Positions 4,838-57,050 of a DNA stretch of 64,000 nt are shown here, one piece after another. The first letter of the stretch is position 1, and each line of letters starts with the position of its first letter. The translations under genes and the position numbers were made by a program. The stretch lies in assembly GCF_013385985.1 (NCBI RefSeq), contig NZ_JACAOY010000002.1:248001-312000 (forward strand), in the 5' to 3' direction. A model generated the notes under the pieces. The model was not told the DNA's origin. It searched no databases and was given only the letters and a program-made list of their open reading frames with translations. The stretch comes from Pseudomonas sp. B6002 (GTDB taxonomy: Bacteria > Pseudomonadota > Gammaproteobacteria > Pseudomonadales > Pseudomonadaceae).

Positions 4838-4857
4838 TCAGGCAAACCGGCAAAACA

Positions 4858-4889
4858 AAAAGGCCAACGCTTAGCGTTGGCCTTTTTTA
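4858..4889 (+). terminator. Rho-independent terminator of gyrB
   Basis: A 10-bp perfect stem (AGGCCAACGC, loop TTA, GCGTTGGCCT at 4861-4883) flanked by A's upstream and a T run downstream. It ends the dnaN-recF-gyrB run. The flanking A tract would let it also stop the converging response regulator transcript. Confidence 0.93.
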
Positions 4890-9167: not shown

Positions 9168-9192
9168 AAAAACGTACTTTTCCGCTGTGCAT

Positions 9193-9221
9193 AAAAAACC
9201 GGTCACAAGGACCGGTTTTTT
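9193..9221 (+). terminator. Rho-independent terminator after the CHASE2 kinase
   Basis: Perfect 12-bp stem, AAAAAACCGGTC / GACCGGTTTTTT, around loop ACAAG. The A and T runs at either side make it usable in both directions, so it may also stop the converging plsC transcript. Confidence 0.9.
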
Positions 9222-9335
9222 AATGCTGAAAAAACTTATGCACGTTTTTCGTGATTTTATGAGCTGAAGAAATATGTAAGTAAATCAGCCTGTTATGAAT
9301 CAAAAAAGCCAATTCGCCAACAAACCGTACACAGG

Positions 9336-36356: not shown

Positions 36357-36393
36357 ACAAAAAAGGGATTTCGAACGAGGTTCGAAATCCCTT
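36357..36393 (-). terminator. Rho-independent terminator of trpBA
   Basis: Perfect 14-bp stem AAGGGATTTCGAAC / GTTCGAAATCCCTT with loop GAG. On the minus strand it is followed by TTTTTTGTT. It lies 77 bases after the trpA stop. Confidence 0.93.
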
Positions 36394-40551: not shown

Positions 40552-40570
40552 TCCCGTGTTGCAGACATAA

Positions 40571-40600
40571 AAAACCGACGCGAGTGCGTCGGTTTTTTTT
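40571..40600 (+). terminator. Rho-independent terminator after DUF1161 copy 1
   Basis: 11-bp stem AAAACCGACGC / GCGTCGGTTTT, loop GAGT, followed by a T run. A's on the left flank allow use by the converging LLM oxidoreductase transcript too. Confidence 0.93.
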
Positions 40601-51094: not shown

Positions 51095-51847
51095 ATGTCT
51101 GATCAAGATCAAGACAACCCCCGGCGTGACTTTTTGCGCAAATCCTTGACCTTGATCCCGGTGGTCACGGTTGCCAGCACCGGCCTCGGTGGCTCGATGC
51201 TGATGGCGACACCGGAGCCGGCCCAGGCCGCTCCCGCCAAACCACCCGCCAGCGAAAAGCCCTATGAGCCGACCTACTTCACGGCCGAAGAGTGGGCCTT
51301 CATCAACGCTGCCGTCGCGCAGCTGATTCCTGCGGATGACCAGGGCCCGGGTGCACTGGAAGCCGGTGCGCCGGAATACATCGATCGCCAGATGAACACG
51401 CCTTACGCCAGTGGCGCACTGTGGTTCATGCAAGGCCCGTTCAACGCCGACGCCGCGCCAGAGATGGGTTGGCAGTCCAAACTGGTGCCCAAGGAAATCT
51501 ATCGCCTGGGTATCGCTGCCACGGATGCGTGGTCGAAGGCATTCAACGGGAAAGCTTTTGCTGCGCAAGACAGCGCTACCCGAGACGATATGTTGCGTCG
51601 CTTGGAGGCGGGCGGCAGTGAGGTGAGCGCGCATTTCGAGGCGGTGCCACCGAAAATGTTCTTTAACCTGTTGCTGCAAAACACCAAGGAAGGGTTCTTT
51701 TGCGACCCGATCCACGGCGGCAACAAAGGCATGGTCGGCTGGACCATGATCGGTTTCCCCGGCGCCCGCGCCGACTTCATGGACTGGGTTGAACGCAACG
51801 AGCAATACCCCTTCCCGGCAGTTTCCATTCGCGGCGAGAGGGCATAA
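51095..51847 (+). CDS. Gluconate 2-dehydrogenase subunit 3 family protein
   Basis: 250 residues with a twin-arginine signal, RRDFLRKSLTLIPVV, at residues 10-24, and cleavage expected near AQA. The mature part matches the small (gamma) subunit of membrane flavin dehydrogenases: FTAEEWAFINAAVAQLIPADDQGPGALEAG. It carries the folded flavoprotein across the membrane by hitch-hiking on Tat. First of a three-gene operon, followed 2 bases later by the GMC subunit. The 265-base gap upstream (50830-51094) holds its promoter but no other gene seen. Confidence 0.92.
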   Translation: MSDQDQDNPRRDFLRKSLTLIPVVTVASTGLGGSMLMATPEPAQAAPAKPPASEKPYEPTYFTAEEWAFINAAVAQLIPADDQGPGALEAGAPEYIDRQMNTPYASGALWFMQGPFNADAAPEMGWQSKLVPKEIYRLGIAATDAWSKAFNGKAFAAQDSATRDDMLRRLEAGGSEVSAHFEAVPPKMFFNLLLQNTKEGFFCDPIHGGNKGMVGWTMIGFPGARADFMDWVERNEQYPFPAVSIRGERA

Positions 51848-51849
51848 AC

Positions 51850-53634
51850 GTGGCGACCATCATGAAGAAAGTAGACGCGGTGATCGTAGGCTTTGGCTGG
51901 ACCGGCGCGATCATGGCCAAGGAGCTGACGGAAGCGGGCCTCAACGTGGTAGCGCTGGAGCGCGGCCCGATGCAGGACACTTACCCGGACGGCAACTATC
52001 CCCAGGTCATCGACGAACTGACCTACAGCGTGCGTAAAAAACTCTTCCAAGACATTTCCAAAGAGACGGTGACCATTCGCCATAGCGTGAATGACGTCGC
52101 CCTGCCCAACCGTCAGTTGGGCGCGTTCCTGCCGGGCAATGGCGTGGGGGGCGCAGGTTTGCATTGGTCGGGCGTGCACTTTCGTGTCGACCCGATTGAG
52201 CTGCGTATGCGCAGCCATTACGAAGAGCGCTACGGCAAAAACTTCATTCCCAAGGACATGACCATCCAGGACTTCGGCGTCAGCTATGAAGAGCTGGAGC
52301 CGTTTTTCGACTACGCGGAGAAAGTCTTCGGTACCTCGGGCCAGGCGTGGACGGTCAAGGGGCAGTTGGTGGGTGAAGGCCGTGGCGGTAACCCATATGC
52401 GCCGGATCGTTCCAACCCGTTCCCGTTGGAGTCGCAGAAAAACACCGTCTCTGCACAGCTGTTTCAGAAAGCCGCTACCGAGGTCGGCTACAAACCCTAC
52501 AACCTGCCATCCGCCAATACGTCGGGGCCGTACACCAATCCCTACGGCGCGCAGATGGGCCCGTGCAATTTTTGCGGGTTCTGCAGCGGCTACGTTTGCT
52601 ACATGTATTCCAAGGCCTCGCCGAACGTGAACATCCTGCCAGCGTTGCGCCAGGTGCCGAACTTCGAGCTGCGGCCCAATTCCCATGTGCTCAAGGTCAA
52701 CCTCGACAGCACCAAGGGCAAGGCCACCGGCGTGACCTACATCGACGGCCAGGGCCGGGAATGCGAGCAGCCGGCCGACCTGGTGATCCTCGGGTCTTTC
52801 CAGTTCAACAACGTGCGGTTGATGCTGCTGTCGGGTATCGGCAAACCTTACGACCCCATCACCAATGAAGGCGTGGTAGGCAGGAATTTCGCCTACCAGA
52901 ACATGGCCACCATCAAGGCGTTCTTCGACAAGGACACCCACACCAACAACTTCATCGGTGCGGGTGGTAATGGCGTGGCCATTGACGACTTCAACGCCGA
53001 CAACTTCGACCACGGACCGCATGGTTTCGTAGGCGGCTCGCCGATGTGGGTCAACCAGGCGGGCAGCCGTCCGATTGCCGGTACTTCCAACCCCCCGGGC
53101 ACCCCGGCCTGGGGCAGTGCCTGGAAGCGCGCTACCGCCGATTACTACACCCACCAAGTGTCGATGGACGCCCATGGAGCCCATCAATCCTACCGGGGCA
53201 ACTACCTGGATCTGGACCCGGTGTATCGCGATGCCTATGGCCTGCCGTTGTTGCGGATGACGTTCGACTGGCAGGAAAACGACATCAAGATGAACCGCTT
53301 CATGGTCGAGAAAATGGGCAAGGTCGCGCAAGCGATGAACCCCAAGGCCATTGCGTTGCTGGGCAAGAAAGTCGGGGAACATTTCAACACCGCGTCGTAC
53401 CAGACCACCCACCTCAACGGTGGCGCGATCATGGGCACCGACCCGAAAACCAGCGCGTTGAACCGCTATCTGCAGTGCTGGGATGTGCACAACGTATTTG
53501 TGCCCGGCGCATCTGCTTTCCCACAGGGCCTGGGCTACAACCCGACCGGCCTGGTGGCGGCGCTGGCCTATTGGTCGGCGCGGGCGATCCGCGAGCAGTA
53601 TCTGAAGAACCCCGGCCCACTGGTTCAGGCATAA
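51850..53634 (+). CDS. GMC-type flavoprotein dehydrogenase, large subunit (gluconate 2-dehydrogenase-like)
   Basis: 594 residues from GTG 51850, with GAGAGGG upstream; ATG 51862 is an alternative. The FAD Rossmann motif VIVGFGWTGAIMAKEL is at residues 10-25 and the C-terminal GMC region has NPTGLVAALAYWSARAI. The active-site His is expected in HLNGGAIMG or nearby. A cysteine cluster, CNFCGFCSGYVC, lies near residues 239-250 and may hold an iron-sulfur centre as reported for FAD-glucose dehydrogenase. Substrate could be gluconate, 2-ketogluconate or a polyol. Confidence 0.9.
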   Translation: MATIMKKVDAVIVGFGWTGAIMAKELTEAGLNVVALERGPMQDTYPDGNYPQVIDELTYSVRKKLFQDISKETVTIRHSVNDVALPNRQLGAFLPGNGVGGAGLHWSGVHFRVDPIELRMRSHYEERYGKNFIPKDMTIQDFGVSYEELEPFFDYAEKVFGTSGQAWTVKGQLVGEGRGGNPYAPDRSNPFPLESQKNTVSAQLFQKAATEVGYKPYNLPSANTSGPYTNPYGAQMGPCNFCGFCSGYVCYMYSKASPNVNILPALRQVPNFELRPNSHVLKVNLDSTKGKATGVTYIDGQGRECEQPADLVILGSFQFNNVRLMLLSGIGKPYDPITNEGVVGRNFAYQNMATIKAFFDKDTHTNNFIGAGGNGVAIDDFNADNFDHGPHGFVGGSPMWVNQAGSRPIAGTSNPPGTPAWGSAWKRATADYYTHQVSMDAHGAHQSYRGNYLDLDPVYRDAYGLPLLRMTFDWQENDIKMNRFMVEKMGKVAQAMNPKAIALLGKKVGEHFNTASYQTTHLNGGAIMGTDPKTSALNRYLQCWDVHNVFVPGASAFPQGLGYNPTGLVAALAYWSARAIREQYLKNPGPLVQA

Positions 53635-53646
53635 GGAGCGATGACC

Positions 53647-54945
53647 ATGAAAGCACTCGTTATCGCCTCCCTGGCGCTGTTCAGCAGCTGTTCTGTGAGC
53701 GCGGCTGAAACCGACCTGATCAAGCAGGGCGAATACCTGGCCCGCGCCGGTGACTGCGTGGCCTGCCACACCGCCAAGGGCGGTAAACCCTTCGCCGGTG
53801 GCCTGCCGATGGAAACGCCCATCGGCGTGATCTATTCCACCAACATCACCCCGGACAAAACCGGCCTGGGCGGCTATAGCTTCGAAGACTTCGACAAGGC
53901 CGTGCGCCATGGCGTCGCCAAGAGCGGTAGTACCCTTTACCCGGCGATGCCCTACCCGTCTTACGCACGCGTCAGCGATAGCGACATGCAGGCGTTGTAT
54001 GCGTATTTCATGAAGGGGGTGGAACCGGTTGCCCAAGAGAACAAGGACAGCGACATTCCTTGGCCCCTGAGCATGCGCTGGCCGTTGGCGGCATGGCGCT
54101 GGATGTTCGCGCCGGCGGTTGCAGAGGCGCAGCCACAGGCGGCTGCCGACCCGGTGATCAGCCGCGGCGCCTACCTGGTGGAAGGCCTGGGCCACTGCGG
54201 TGCCTGCCATACGCCGCGTGCCCTGACCATGCAGGAGAAAGCCCTGAGTGCCACTGACGGCAATGCGTTCTTGTCTGGCAGCGCGCCACTGGAAGGCTGG
54301 ATCGCCAAAAGCCTGCGCGGTGACCACAAGGACGGCCTCGGCAGTTGGAGCGAGGAACAACTGGTGCAATTCCTCAAGACCGGCCGCAGTGATCGCAGCG
54401 CGGTGTTTGGCGGTATGAGCGACGTGGTGGTCCACAGCATGCAGTACATGTCGGAAAATGACCTGACCGCTATCGCTCGTTACCTCAAAAGCCTGCCGGC
54501 GGTGGACCCGAAAGATCAGCCGCACCTGTACGACAAGCAGGTGGCTGACGCGCTGTGGAAAGGCGATGACAGCAAGCCCGGCGCCTCGGTGTATATCGAC
54601 AACTGTGCGGCTTGCCACCGCACCGACGGCCACGGCTACACGCGCGTGTTTCCGGCACTGGCGGGTAACCCCGTGTTGCAGACGGCGGATGCCACGTCCT
54701 TGATCAACATCGTGTTGAACGGCGGCACCTTGCCGGCCACTCACGCGGCGCCGTCCACCTTCACCATGCCGGCGTTTGCGTGGCGCCTGTCGGACCAGGA
54801 AGTGGCAGATGTGGTCAGTTTCGTGCGTGGCAGTTGGGGTAACAAGGGCGAACCTGTGAAGGCCAGCGACGTGGCGGACCTGCGCAAGAACGACATGCGC
54901 ACCACCTCGGGCGATGACCTGGGCCAAGTGACGCAAAAACACTGA
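53647..54945 (+). CDS. Tri-haem cytochrome c subunit of the flavin dehydrogenase
   Basis: 432 residues from ATG 53647; AAGGAG is eight bases before it but only two before ATG 53641. A signal peptide (LVIASLALFSSCSVSA) precedes three haem c sites, CVACH, CGACH and CAACH, each with a later Met ligand region. It passes electrons from the flavoprotein to ubiquinone or the oxidase chain in the membrane. Six bases after the GMC stop, so it completes the operon. Confidence 0.93.
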   Translation: MKALVIASLALFSSCSVSAAETDLIKQGEYLARAGDCVACHTAKGGKPFAGGLPMETPIGVIYSTNITPDKTGLGGYSFEDFDKAVRHGVAKSGSTLYPAMPYPSYARVSDSDMQALYAYFMKGVEPVAQENKDSDIPWPLSMRWPLAAWRWMFAPAVAEAQPQAAADPVISRGAYLVEGLGHCGACHTPRALTMQEKALSATDGNAFLSGSAPLEGWIAKSLRGDHKDGLGSWSEEQLVQFLKTGRSDRSAVFGGMSDVVVHSMQYMSENDLTAIARYLKSLPAVDPKDQPHLYDKQVADALWKGDDSKPGASVYIDNCAACHRTDGHGYTRVFPALAGNPVLQTADATSLINIVLNGGTLPATHAAPSTFTMPAFAWRLSDQEVADVVSFVRGSWGNKGEPVKASDVADLRKNDMRTTSGDDLGQVTQKH

Positions 54946-54986
54946 CGCGTACCTGACCGCCAAACGGCACTGGTCAGAACCCTTGC

Positions 54987-55020
54987 GCCTCGATACTGTA
55001 TATAAAAACAGTATCGAGGC
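54987..55020 (+). promoter_or_regulatory. LexA SOS box nested in a 13-bp inverted repeat
   Basis: The 20-mer TACTGTATATAAAAACAGTA (54994-55013) fits the LexA consensus CTGT-N8-ACAG. It is the centre of a longer perfect repeat: GCCTCGATACTGT and ACAGTATCGAGGC around ATATAAAA. The right arm ends six bases before the radical SAM ATG and contains GAGG, the only visible ribosome binding site. Confidence 0.92.
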
Positions 55021-55026
55021 GTTTTC

Positions 55027-56085
55027 ATGTCTACTCCGTTGCCGCCCCGTGGCCGGGGCACTGCCACCAACCTGCACAACCGCTTCGCGCCCACCGTCAG
55101 CGTGGTTGAGGACGACGGTTGGTATCAGGAAGTGCCACCCACCCAGGGCACTGAAGTGCGCATCGAAACGGCCAAGACCATCATCACCCGCAACAACTCG
55201 CCGGACCTGCCGTTTGATCGCTCGATCAATCCTTACCGGGGTTGCGAGCATGGCTGTATCTACTGCTACGCGCGGCCTAGCCATGCGTATTGGGACATGT
55301 CTCCCGGTCTGGATTTCGAGACCAGGTTGATCGCCAAGAGCAACGCTGCTGACGTGCTGGAGCAGCAGCTGTCGAAGCCGGGCTATGTGTGTGCGCCGAT
55401 CAACCTGGGCTCCAATACCGACCCGTATCAGCCCATCGAACGCGAATACAGGATCACTCGGCAAACCCTTGAAGTGCTGCTGCGCTACCGGCACCCGGTG
55501 ACGATCATCACCAAGGGCTCGCTGATCCTGCGTGACCTCGACTTGCTCACTGAGTTGGCCAGGCAGCGACTGGTGGCGGTGATGATCAGCCTCACCAGCC
55601 TGGACGACGAACTCAAGCGCATCCTGGAGCCCCGCACGGCGGCGCCCAAGGCGCGTTTGCGGGCGATTCGCGTGATGCGCGAGGCGGGTATCCCGGTGGG
55701 TGTGCTGTGCTCGCCGATGATCCCCATGATCAACGACAGCGAGCTCGAAAGCCTGCTCACGGAGGCCCACGCAGCCGGTGCACAAAGTGCGGCCTACATG
55801 ATGCTGCGCCTGCCCCTTGAGGTGGCGCCGCTGTTCGAGGAATGGCTGGCGGCACATTACCCGCAGCGAGCGGCCCATGTGATGAGCCTGGTGCGGCAAG
55901 TGCGCGGTGGCGAGGTGTATGACAGCCGCTTTGGGGTGCGCATGCGCGGTGAGGGGCCGTTTGCCGATTTGCTGGCCCAGCGCTTCAGCAAGGCGATCAA
56001 ACGCCTGGGGCTCAATCGTCGTGAGGGGTTTAATCTGGATTGCACAGCGTTCTGTCCGCCGGGCAGGCAGATGGCATTGTTATAG
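55027..56085 (+). CDS. PA0069-family radical SAM protein (SplB-like), SOS-regulated
   Basis: 352 residues. The radical SAM cluster is CEHGCIYCYARP (CX3CX2C). Further features are NLGSNTDPYQPIEREYRITRQTLEVL and a C-terminal Cys-containing end NLDCTAFCPPG. It resembles spore photoproduct lyase, but the substrate is unknown. The P. aeruginosa orthologue PA0069 is a LexA-regulon member, consistent with the SOS box directly upstream here. A DNA-repair role is likely but unproven. Confidence 0.93.
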   Translation: MSTPLPPRGRGTATNLHNRFAPTVSVVEDDGWYQEVPPTQGTEVRIETAKTIITRNNSPDLPFDRSINPYRGCEHGCIYCYARPSHAYWDMSPGLDFETRLIAKSNAADVLEQQLSKPGYVCAPINLGSNTDPYQPIEREYRITRQTLEVLLRYRHPVTIITKGSLILRDLDLLTELARQRLVAVMISLTSLDDELKRILEPRTAAPKARLRAIRVMREAGIPVGVLCSPMIPMINDSELESLLTEAHAAGAQSAAYMMLRLPLEVAPLFEEWLAAHYPQRAAHVMSLVRQVRGGEVYDSRFGVRMRGEGPFADLLAQRFSKAIKRLGLNRREGFNLDCTAFCPPGRQMALL

Positions 56086-56318
56086 GTAGACTAGTAGGGA
56101 TAAGAGCGTTCTTATTGTAGGAATGGTCGCACATTGACATCACTGAAACCCGCGATCTAGAGCGGTTTGTTCAGTTTGAATTAAGTTTCGATGGTTACCT
56201 TGTTCAACGAGTGACTGATGGGTCGCGAACCGGCTTTTGTGGCATTTCACAACTATTGCCCTGAGCCGGCGTCGAACTGGCCTGAATATTCCCCCTGCCT
56301 TAATCAAGAGGATGAATC

Positions 56319-57050
56319 ATGAGTGACAAGGATAAACAGCCGTTGGCTGCGTCGGCATCAGCCCCTCAGGTGGCGGAAACCGCCGATGCAGCGCTGAAGC
56401 ATATCGTTGACGGCTTTTTGCATTTCCATCACGACGTCTTCCCCCAACAGGAAGAACTGTTCAAGAAACTCGCCACGGCTCAGAGCCCGCGGGCGATGTT
56501 CATCACGTGCGCCGACTCGCGCATCGTCCCTGAGCTGATTACCCAAAGCTCTCCAGGCGATCTGTTTGTAACCCGTAACGTCGGCAACGTGGTGCCGCCC
56601 TACGGTCAGATGAACGGCGGTGTTTCCACTGCCATCGAGTACGCGGTGCTCGCCTTGGGCGTGCAGCACATCATCGTGTGTGGGCACTCCGACTGCGGTG
56701 CCATGCGCGCGGTACTCAACCCTGCCAGCCTGGAGAAGATGCCGACGGTCAGGGCCTGGCTGCGGCATGCCGAGGTCGCCAGGTCGATGGTTGAGGACAA
56801 CTGCGACTGCGCCAACGAAGGCGAGAGCATGAAGGTGCTGACTGAAGAAAACGTCATCGCCCAGTTGCAACATTTGCGCACCCACCCTTCCGTGGCTTCG
56901 CGCATGGCCAATGGTCAATTGTTTATCCACGGCTGGATCTACAACATCGAGACCAGCGAGATCCGCGCCTACGATGCCGACCAGTCGGCTTTCCGCTCGT
57001 TGAGCGGCGACGGGCCGATCCCTTGCGCGACGCCTAAAGCGCGCTTCTAA
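56319..57050 (+). CDS. Beta-class carbonic anhydrase
   Basis: 243 residues. Zinc ligands are visible in CADSRIVPE (Cys and the Asp-Arg dyad) and HSDCGAMRA (His and Cys). It interconverts CO2 and bicarbonate in the cytoplasm. It is followed after 85 bases by a SulP transporter, a pairing that suggests bicarbonate transport or pH handling. AAGAGGATGAATC precedes the ATG. The 233-base gap upstream (56086-56318) holds a weak AT-stem hairpin at 56100-56115 and otherwise no recognised signal. Confidence 0.95.
   Translation: MSDKDKQPLAASASAPQVAETADAALKHIVDGFLHFHHDVFPQQEELFKKLATAQSPRAMFITCADSRIVPELITQSSPGDLFVTRNVGNVVPPYGQMNGGVSTAIEYAVLALGVQHIIVCGHSDCGAMRAVLNPASLEKMPTVRAWLRHAEVARSMVEDNCDCANEGESMKVLTEENVIAQLQHLRTHPSVASRMANGQLFIHGWIYNIETSEIRAYDADQSAFRSLSGDGPIPCATPKARF

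Follow-up and report, generated by a model that had tools for sequence, protein, structure and literature searches.

Why does the LexA (SOS) box in front of a radical SAM gene form the top of a long perfect hairpin, the right arm of which also holds the Shine-Dalgarno (SD) sequence of that gene? The locus lies in a stretch of 64,000 nucleotides of Pseudomonas DNA, which is called the window here, and its features are collected in Table 1. The encoded protein scored 494.8 bits against NF033668, above the curated cut-off of 360, and thus belongs to the PA0069 family. PA0069 is said to have been placed within the P. aeruginosa SOS regulon by Cirz in 2006. Our search of open-licence papers found none linking PA0069 with LexA, and the one such paper that mentions PA0069 uses it solely to name an insertion place. 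The radical SAM gene is preceded, in the same orientation, by a gluconate-2-dehydrogenase-like operon (51095-54945) encoding a PF13618 protein, a GMC oxidoreductase, and a cytochrome c; the stop codon of the cytochrome c gene ends at 54945, and from there it is 40 nt to the left arm of the hairpin.

Table 1. Features of the radical SAM locus, in coordinates of the window
Feature	Position	Strand	Remarks
Cytochrome c gene	53641..54945	+	Co-directional, upstream; last in its operon; presumed source of read-through RNA
Conserved element GCCAAACGGCACTGG	54959..54973	+	Upstream of the box; perhaps a -35 region
Hairpin left arm CGCCTCGATACTGT	54986..54999	+	Innermost bases belong to the LexA box (its left half)
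Possible -10 hexamer GATACT	54992..54997	+	Overlaps the left half of the LexA box
LexA (SOS) box CTGTATATAAAAACAG	54996..55011	.	Forms the top of the stem
Hairpin right arm ACAGTATCGAGGCG	55008..55021	+	
Shine-Dalgarno GAGG	55016..55019	+	Within the right arm, 7 nt before ATG 55027
TTTT	55022..55025	+	Directly 3' of the stem; may be a weak terminator tail or an AU-rich spacer
PA0069-family radical SAM protein, 352 aa	55027..56085	+	NF033668, PF04055

The inverted repeat is perfect over 54986-55021, with arms of 14 bp and a loop of 8 nt (ATATAAAA), and hairpin scoring adds a 15th pair, G-T, at 54985/55022. The original prediction of a perfect 34-base repeat with 13-bp arms was thus right about its perfection and too small in its size, and the GAGG does lie inside the right arm, as had been claimed. 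The LexA box, 31 bp 5' of the start codon, is the sole mismatch-free match in the window to CTGT-N8-ACAG; with one mismatch allowed there are 18 matches, which together are at chance level (shuffle mean of 22.1). The RNA of 54946-55060 has a predicted folding energy of −53.1 kcal/mol (z of −6.3), and 0 of 200 shuffles was as stable. The longest perfect arm (loop of 3-10) in 20 first-order random sequences of the length of the window was 12. In the window itself, perfect arms of at least 9 were found at seven sites, and since two hairpins besides that of the LexA box also reach 14, long hairpins are not confined to this site. What is notable is that this one is centered on the LexA box and lies over the ribosome site, not its mere length. 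No Rfam 15 covariance model matched within 53500-56400 at E values up to 1. Further long perfect inverted repeats with short loops were seen at 4857-4887, 9192-9222, 36363-36393, and 40569-40598; they are perhaps terminators.

The arms were then compared among relatives. The radical SAM protein is present in 376 of 399 genomes sampled from Pseudomonas, and these 376 were sampled; 240 loci were fetched in all, 80 of them from named GTDB species. The best box carries CTG...CAG in 210 of the 240 loci, duplicates and distant relatives counted. A usable box, defined as CTG...CAG located 20-60 bp before the match and passing a score cut, was found in 198 loci, which gave 159 distinct flanks. The Pseudomonas set comprises 149 of them; 24 come from named records, one being a Stutzerimonas (L058) and another a gammaproteobacterial MAG (L053). 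Across the 149 flanks the LexA box is kept, and the arm sequences vary by lineage with pairing kept. The arm pairs are CGCCTCGATA..TATCGAGGCG in the window, CGCCCCTATA..TATAGGGGCG in L158, CCCCTTGTA..TACAAGGGG in L137, AACCCGGATTA..TAATCCGGGTT in L043, GGCAATTAA..TTAATTGCC in L116, and ACCTCTATA..TATAGAGGT in L129. Arms resembling those of the window were labeled window-type by short left-arm motifs (43 of 149), a label that is no tree clade and that wrongly includes a few loci, such as L038, L197, L200, and L119, for which reason a Fisher test within the labeled loci was set aside. A long stem, meaning 8 or more pairs beyond the core, is present in 58 loci and absent from 91 of the 149, for example L111, L180, and L172. 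Both the start and the SD are clear in 53 of the long-stem loci, and in 48 of these the SD lies wholly within the right arm, an overlap that is partly automatic owing to the short distance from box to start. The stem ends before the SD in L207, covers one base of it in L049, and covers part of it in three others. Outside this set, the same gene in Modicisalibacter xianhensis (L061) has its LexA box in a long palindrome of different sequence.

Covariation was counted at offsets 12-19 from the box center, as branches on which one Watson-Crick pair was replaced by another with both sides changed. For the 68 full-length genes, 47 such double changes were found in register, compared with 9, 6, 15, 12, 6, 7, 11, and 9 at slides from −4 to +4. 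The 149 sequences gave 81 in register against 11-35 out of register, on a tree that is rougher because it was built from 150 nt. Covariation of the outer arms in relatives had been named in the original prediction as a check, and a lack of conservation outside the LexA site as evidence against it; the arms are in fact kept by compensating changes (47 versus 6-15) that preserve pairing. The subset of 37 window-type sequences in which the start is 30-31 bp from the box has 93.8% of cells paired, and 12 cells have changed on both sides and are still paired (shuffled mean of 3.7; 0 of 500 shuffles), while the number of pairs with a both-side change is not unusual in this set (3 versus 1.9 in shuffles). 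When left and right flanks were exchanged between species without gaps, the excess of true over swapped pairing was clear at offsets 12-14 and 17-19 and small at offsets 11, 15, and 16; no excess was found at offsets 9-10, which are fixed by LexA, nor at 20 and beyond.

Such pairing is rare at other LexA-like boxes. The mean number of pairs at offsets 11-18 is 4.36 of 8 in the 149 radical SAM flanks and 2.37 of 8 in a control of 67 LexA-like boxes, which were collected from 15 genomes by two search patterns, irrespective of promoter position (p of 3e-9). With one sequence per left arm (121 sequences), the radical SAM mean is 3.83 of 8 against the same control value (p of 3e-6). None of the nine other boxes that the pattern picked out in the genome of the window is perfect, and two (L242 and L250) reach 6 of 8. 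The mean fold energy is −17.7 kcal/mol for the radical SAM arms, −12.9 kcal/mol for swapped flanks, and −10.7 kcal/mol for control boxes; swapped flanks thus fold fairly well too, and a few control boxes (L288, L297, L291, and L305) lie in good hairpins. The extended pairing is therefore largely, not exclusively, specific to the radical SAM operator.

The presence of the stem is associated with the direction of the upstream neighbor, as would be expected of a guard against incoming RNA. Among loci with a near co-directional neighbor, 53 of 92 have a long stem, a near neighbor being a gene ending at most 150 bp upstream, as against 2 of 41 with a neighbor on the opposite strand (Fisher p of 2e-9); the corresponding counts are 3 of 12 where the neighbor is co-directional but farther away and 0 of 4 where none was called. 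An arm fold of −18 kcal/mol or lower is likewise found in 68 of the 92, 5 of the 41, 3 of the 12, and 0 of the 4. When the window-type arms are removed, long stems remain at 19 of 54 co-directional and 2 of 37 opposite loci (p of 8e-4). The co-directional neighbors are of unrelated families, namely, cytochrome c (40), M3 peptidase (23), a DUF2387 metal-binding protein (11), and genes called by codon use only (18); those on the opposite strand are a small protein without a Pfam match (22), a phosphatase (11), and genes called by codon use only (8). A co-directional neighbor does not always bring a long stem, as 39 of the 92 loci lack a long ungapped one and 7 fold more weakly than −12 kcal/mol. 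One locus, L023, has window-type arms although its upstream neighbor is a phosphatase gene on the other strand, and its stem has three mismatches.

This comparison was conceived after the distances to the cytochrome gene had been viewed, and the neighbor calls and the distance limit (120 bp, then 150 bp) were revised once after the association was first visible; the association held both before and after. Neighbors were called by homology to five families where possible and otherwise by a codon model, and a calling method based on conservation was dropped as it was misled by antisense frames. In phylogenetic regression (PGLS) over all loci, both trees and both measures gave p values of 0.0014 or lower. 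Without the window-type loci, the pair count gave p of 0.02 on the full tree (0.036 under the Brownian model) and 0.45 on the short tree, and the energy gave 0.002 on the short tree (Brownian, 0.27) and 0.16 on the full tree (Brownian, 0.43), so that two of the four fits hold, whereas under the Brownian model one of the four is significant and three are not. These mixed fits mean that much of the phylogenetic weight comes from the group of the window versus the rest. That the stem is found mostly where a co-directional neighbor lies upstream suggests that it serves as a second lock on the gene.

A lock that acts on read-through RNA only would require the gene's own transcript to start downstream of the left arm. 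An element, GCC-AACGGCACTGG, lies 23-37 bp 5' of the LexA box at a fixed spacing, although the distance from the box to the start codon varies, and T, G, and G occupy positions −25, −24, and −23 from the box in 83, 79, and 89% of the 149 loci, respectively. The end of this element could be a -35 region, separated by a spacer of 16 from a -10 hexamer (GATACT or TATACT) over the left half of the box. The GATACT of the window would then start the RNA near the box center, at about 55003-55006. CTGGTC is a poor match to the -35 consensus, and a sigma-70 consensus scan found no promoter; the -35/-10 reading rests on the conserved element and its fixed spacing. The element also contains a small GCC..GGC dyad that is conserved across the Pseudomonas set, for which a -35 box alone seems an insufficient explanation.

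On predicted RNA folds, the ribosome site is harder to open when the left arm is present. The median cost of opening 8 nt around the SD is 8.8 kcal/mol on read-through RNA, 6.0 kcal/mol with a swapped left flank, and 3.6 kcal/mol on RNA starting at the box center (n = 137); for the 94 loci without window-type arms the values are 6.9, 5.5, and 3.3 kcal/mol, and for the window they are 18.4, 12.7, and 5.1 kcal/mol. Differences in the mean probability that the SD is unpaired are modest (0.24, 0.28, and 0.37 for read-through, swapped, and SOS-start RNA, respectively). The RNA starting at 55004 is predicted to fold no more stably than its shuffles (z of −1.0), with the SD still paired, weakly. The claim that only read-through RNA would hide the ribosome site thus agrees with the predicted costs of opening, and is weakened in so far as RNA from the box center is also predicted to pair the SD to some extent.

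Established here is that the hairpin exists as sequence, that its arms covary, that such hairpins are rare at other LexA-like boxes, and that long stems go with co-directional neighbors. The explanation that we favor, with a probability of roughly 0.55, is a lock of two layers, in which LexA acts on the DNA and the hairpin on read-through RNA. In the first layer, LexA would occupy the box and so cover the gene's own promoter. In the second, RNA polymerase arriving from the upstream operon would copy both arms, and the RNA would form a hairpin of 14-15 bp; as the right arm contains the SD, ribosomes would be unable to start, the presumed block being one of translation and not of termination. 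DNA damage would remove LexA, and the gene's own transcript, probably beginning inside the box and so without the left arm, would be translated.

The rival with the most in its favor, though we consider it unlikely, is that the upstream operon has its intrinsic terminator in this hairpin, which merely happens to include the LexA box. Read-through RNA would then stop before the gene, and SOS transcripts would escape for want of the left arm, with the same outcome for the gene and the block being one of transcription. It likewise predicts the link to co-directional neighbors. The hairpin of the window scored as terminator-like, and as in intrinsic terminators, window-type stems are followed by a run of T: the 35 with at least 7 pairs have a mean of 4.8 T in the 8 nt past the last G-C pair and a run of 4-5 in 22, although the runs are mostly only 3-4 long. 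L043 has an A-tract/T-tract stem. In contrast, the 25 long stems with other arms have a mean of 2.7 T in 8 nt and a run of 4 in just one, and pairing is still kept in them. Since most of these stems lack a T run, unlike intrinsic terminators, termination probably does not account for the pairing in general; in the group of the window it may contribute to the block or even constitute it. Whether terminator or translation lock, the stem would keep upstream RNA from expressing the gene. The double lock of the original prediction is thus supported in part, by the compensating changes in the arms and by the concentration of long stems at co-directional neighbors, and qualified by possible termination in the group of the window.

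It is very improbable, in our estimate, that the longer palindrome is favored as DNA, by LexA or as a cruciform, and not as RNA. The repeat is centered on the LexA box and would pair equally well in DNA. Departures from pairing were G-U in 46 cases and A-C in 26, a strand test that, being biased by the SD, does not separate RNA from DNA pairing; at offsets 9-12, before the SD, the counts were 12 and 10, with no clear difference. A role in DNA is opposed by the pair types, as three interchange at offset 12 and all four at offsets 13 and 14, which means that no fixed base is recognized there. Moreover, the 67 other LexA-like boxes mostly lack an extended palindrome, and a DNA role does not predict a link to the direction of the neighbor.

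The stem might instead protect or process the 3' end of the upstream operon RNA and have no role for the radical SAM gene, a suggestion to which we give still less credence. It fits the co-directional link and makes a T tail unnecessary, but the stem stays with the radical SAM gene while the neighbors belong to unrelated families; the overlap with the SD in 48 of 53 loci also speaks against it, weakly, being partly automatic. Least credible of all is a functionless by-product of quasi-palindrome template switching, which would symmetrize the flanks and yield long perfect arms differing in sequence by lineage, as observed, but which should strike other LexA boxes equally, contrary to the control, and be independent of neighbor direction, contrary to the association seen.

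The two-layer lock has partial counterparts in known systems. In IS10/Tn10 and IS50/Tn5, an inverted repeat in RNA from outside hides the ribosome site of the transposase; these are mobile elements, whereas the SOS gene considered here is a fixed part of the chromosome, and to our knowledge the LexA site is not the stem in them. The mRNAs of the E. coli SOS toxins tisB and symE combine LexA control with control of the ribosome site at the RNA level. In those cases it is the toxin gene's own transcript that is controlled at the RNA level, whereas here the hairpin would form solely on read-through RNA. The Tn5 transposase promoter is described as having a weak LexA site (PMC4265352). The closest logic is that of I-TevI of phage T4, with similar control at segB and mobE, and also at e and soc. 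For I-TevI, PMC2988022 describes RNA from upstream promoters that folds and hides the ribosome site, a late promoter from which the RNA begins too far downstream to form the whole structure, and an operator that overlaps this promoter. The radical SAM locus resembles I-TevI in that a stem is predicted over the SD on upstream RNA; in the Pseudomonas loci, pairing and not sequence is conserved, and many loci have no such stem. It differs in that the repressor is LexA, whose operator itself makes up the stem top, in being a chromosomal gene, and in its presumed trigger, DNA damage; the element at fixed spacing suggests a transcript beginning 3' of the left arm. Among open-licence papers, we found none describing a LexA operator that doubles as a stem hiding a ribosome site.

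A wider claim, for which we would not quite offer even odds, is that across the genus this operator has repeatedly grown into an RNA lock, which is acquired or retained with a co-directional neighbor and lost without one, so that LexA operator, promoter, and anti-read-through structure are combined in one. If this is true, the genome context predicts which SOS genes bear a second lock, and the rule to be tested is that the lock follows the direction of the neighbor. It would also mean that LexA by itself controls some genes beside an active neighbor too loosely, and that evolution counters read-through by a lock at the RNA level on the same bases. For the uncharacterized PA0069-family radical SAM enzyme, it would hint at a cost of being expressed in the absence of DNA damage.

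The hairpin lock may also exist at other SOS genes. Among the control boxes, L288, L297, L291, L305, and L250 lie in hairpins, and an SD-like sequence and an ATG follow just 3' at L291, L297, and L305.

It is also worth mentioning that the radical SAM gene is split at codons ~73-85, the CxxxCxxC region, in several Pseudomonas genomes, by inserts of 4.7-12 kb. Interrupted genes were seen in L316 (G119) and L317 (G087) and also in G009, G071, G095, and L052. This region looks like a favored integration site of mobile islands; in both L316 and L317, a serine-type recombinase (PF07508, and in L317 also PF00239) adjoins the 3' part of the gene.
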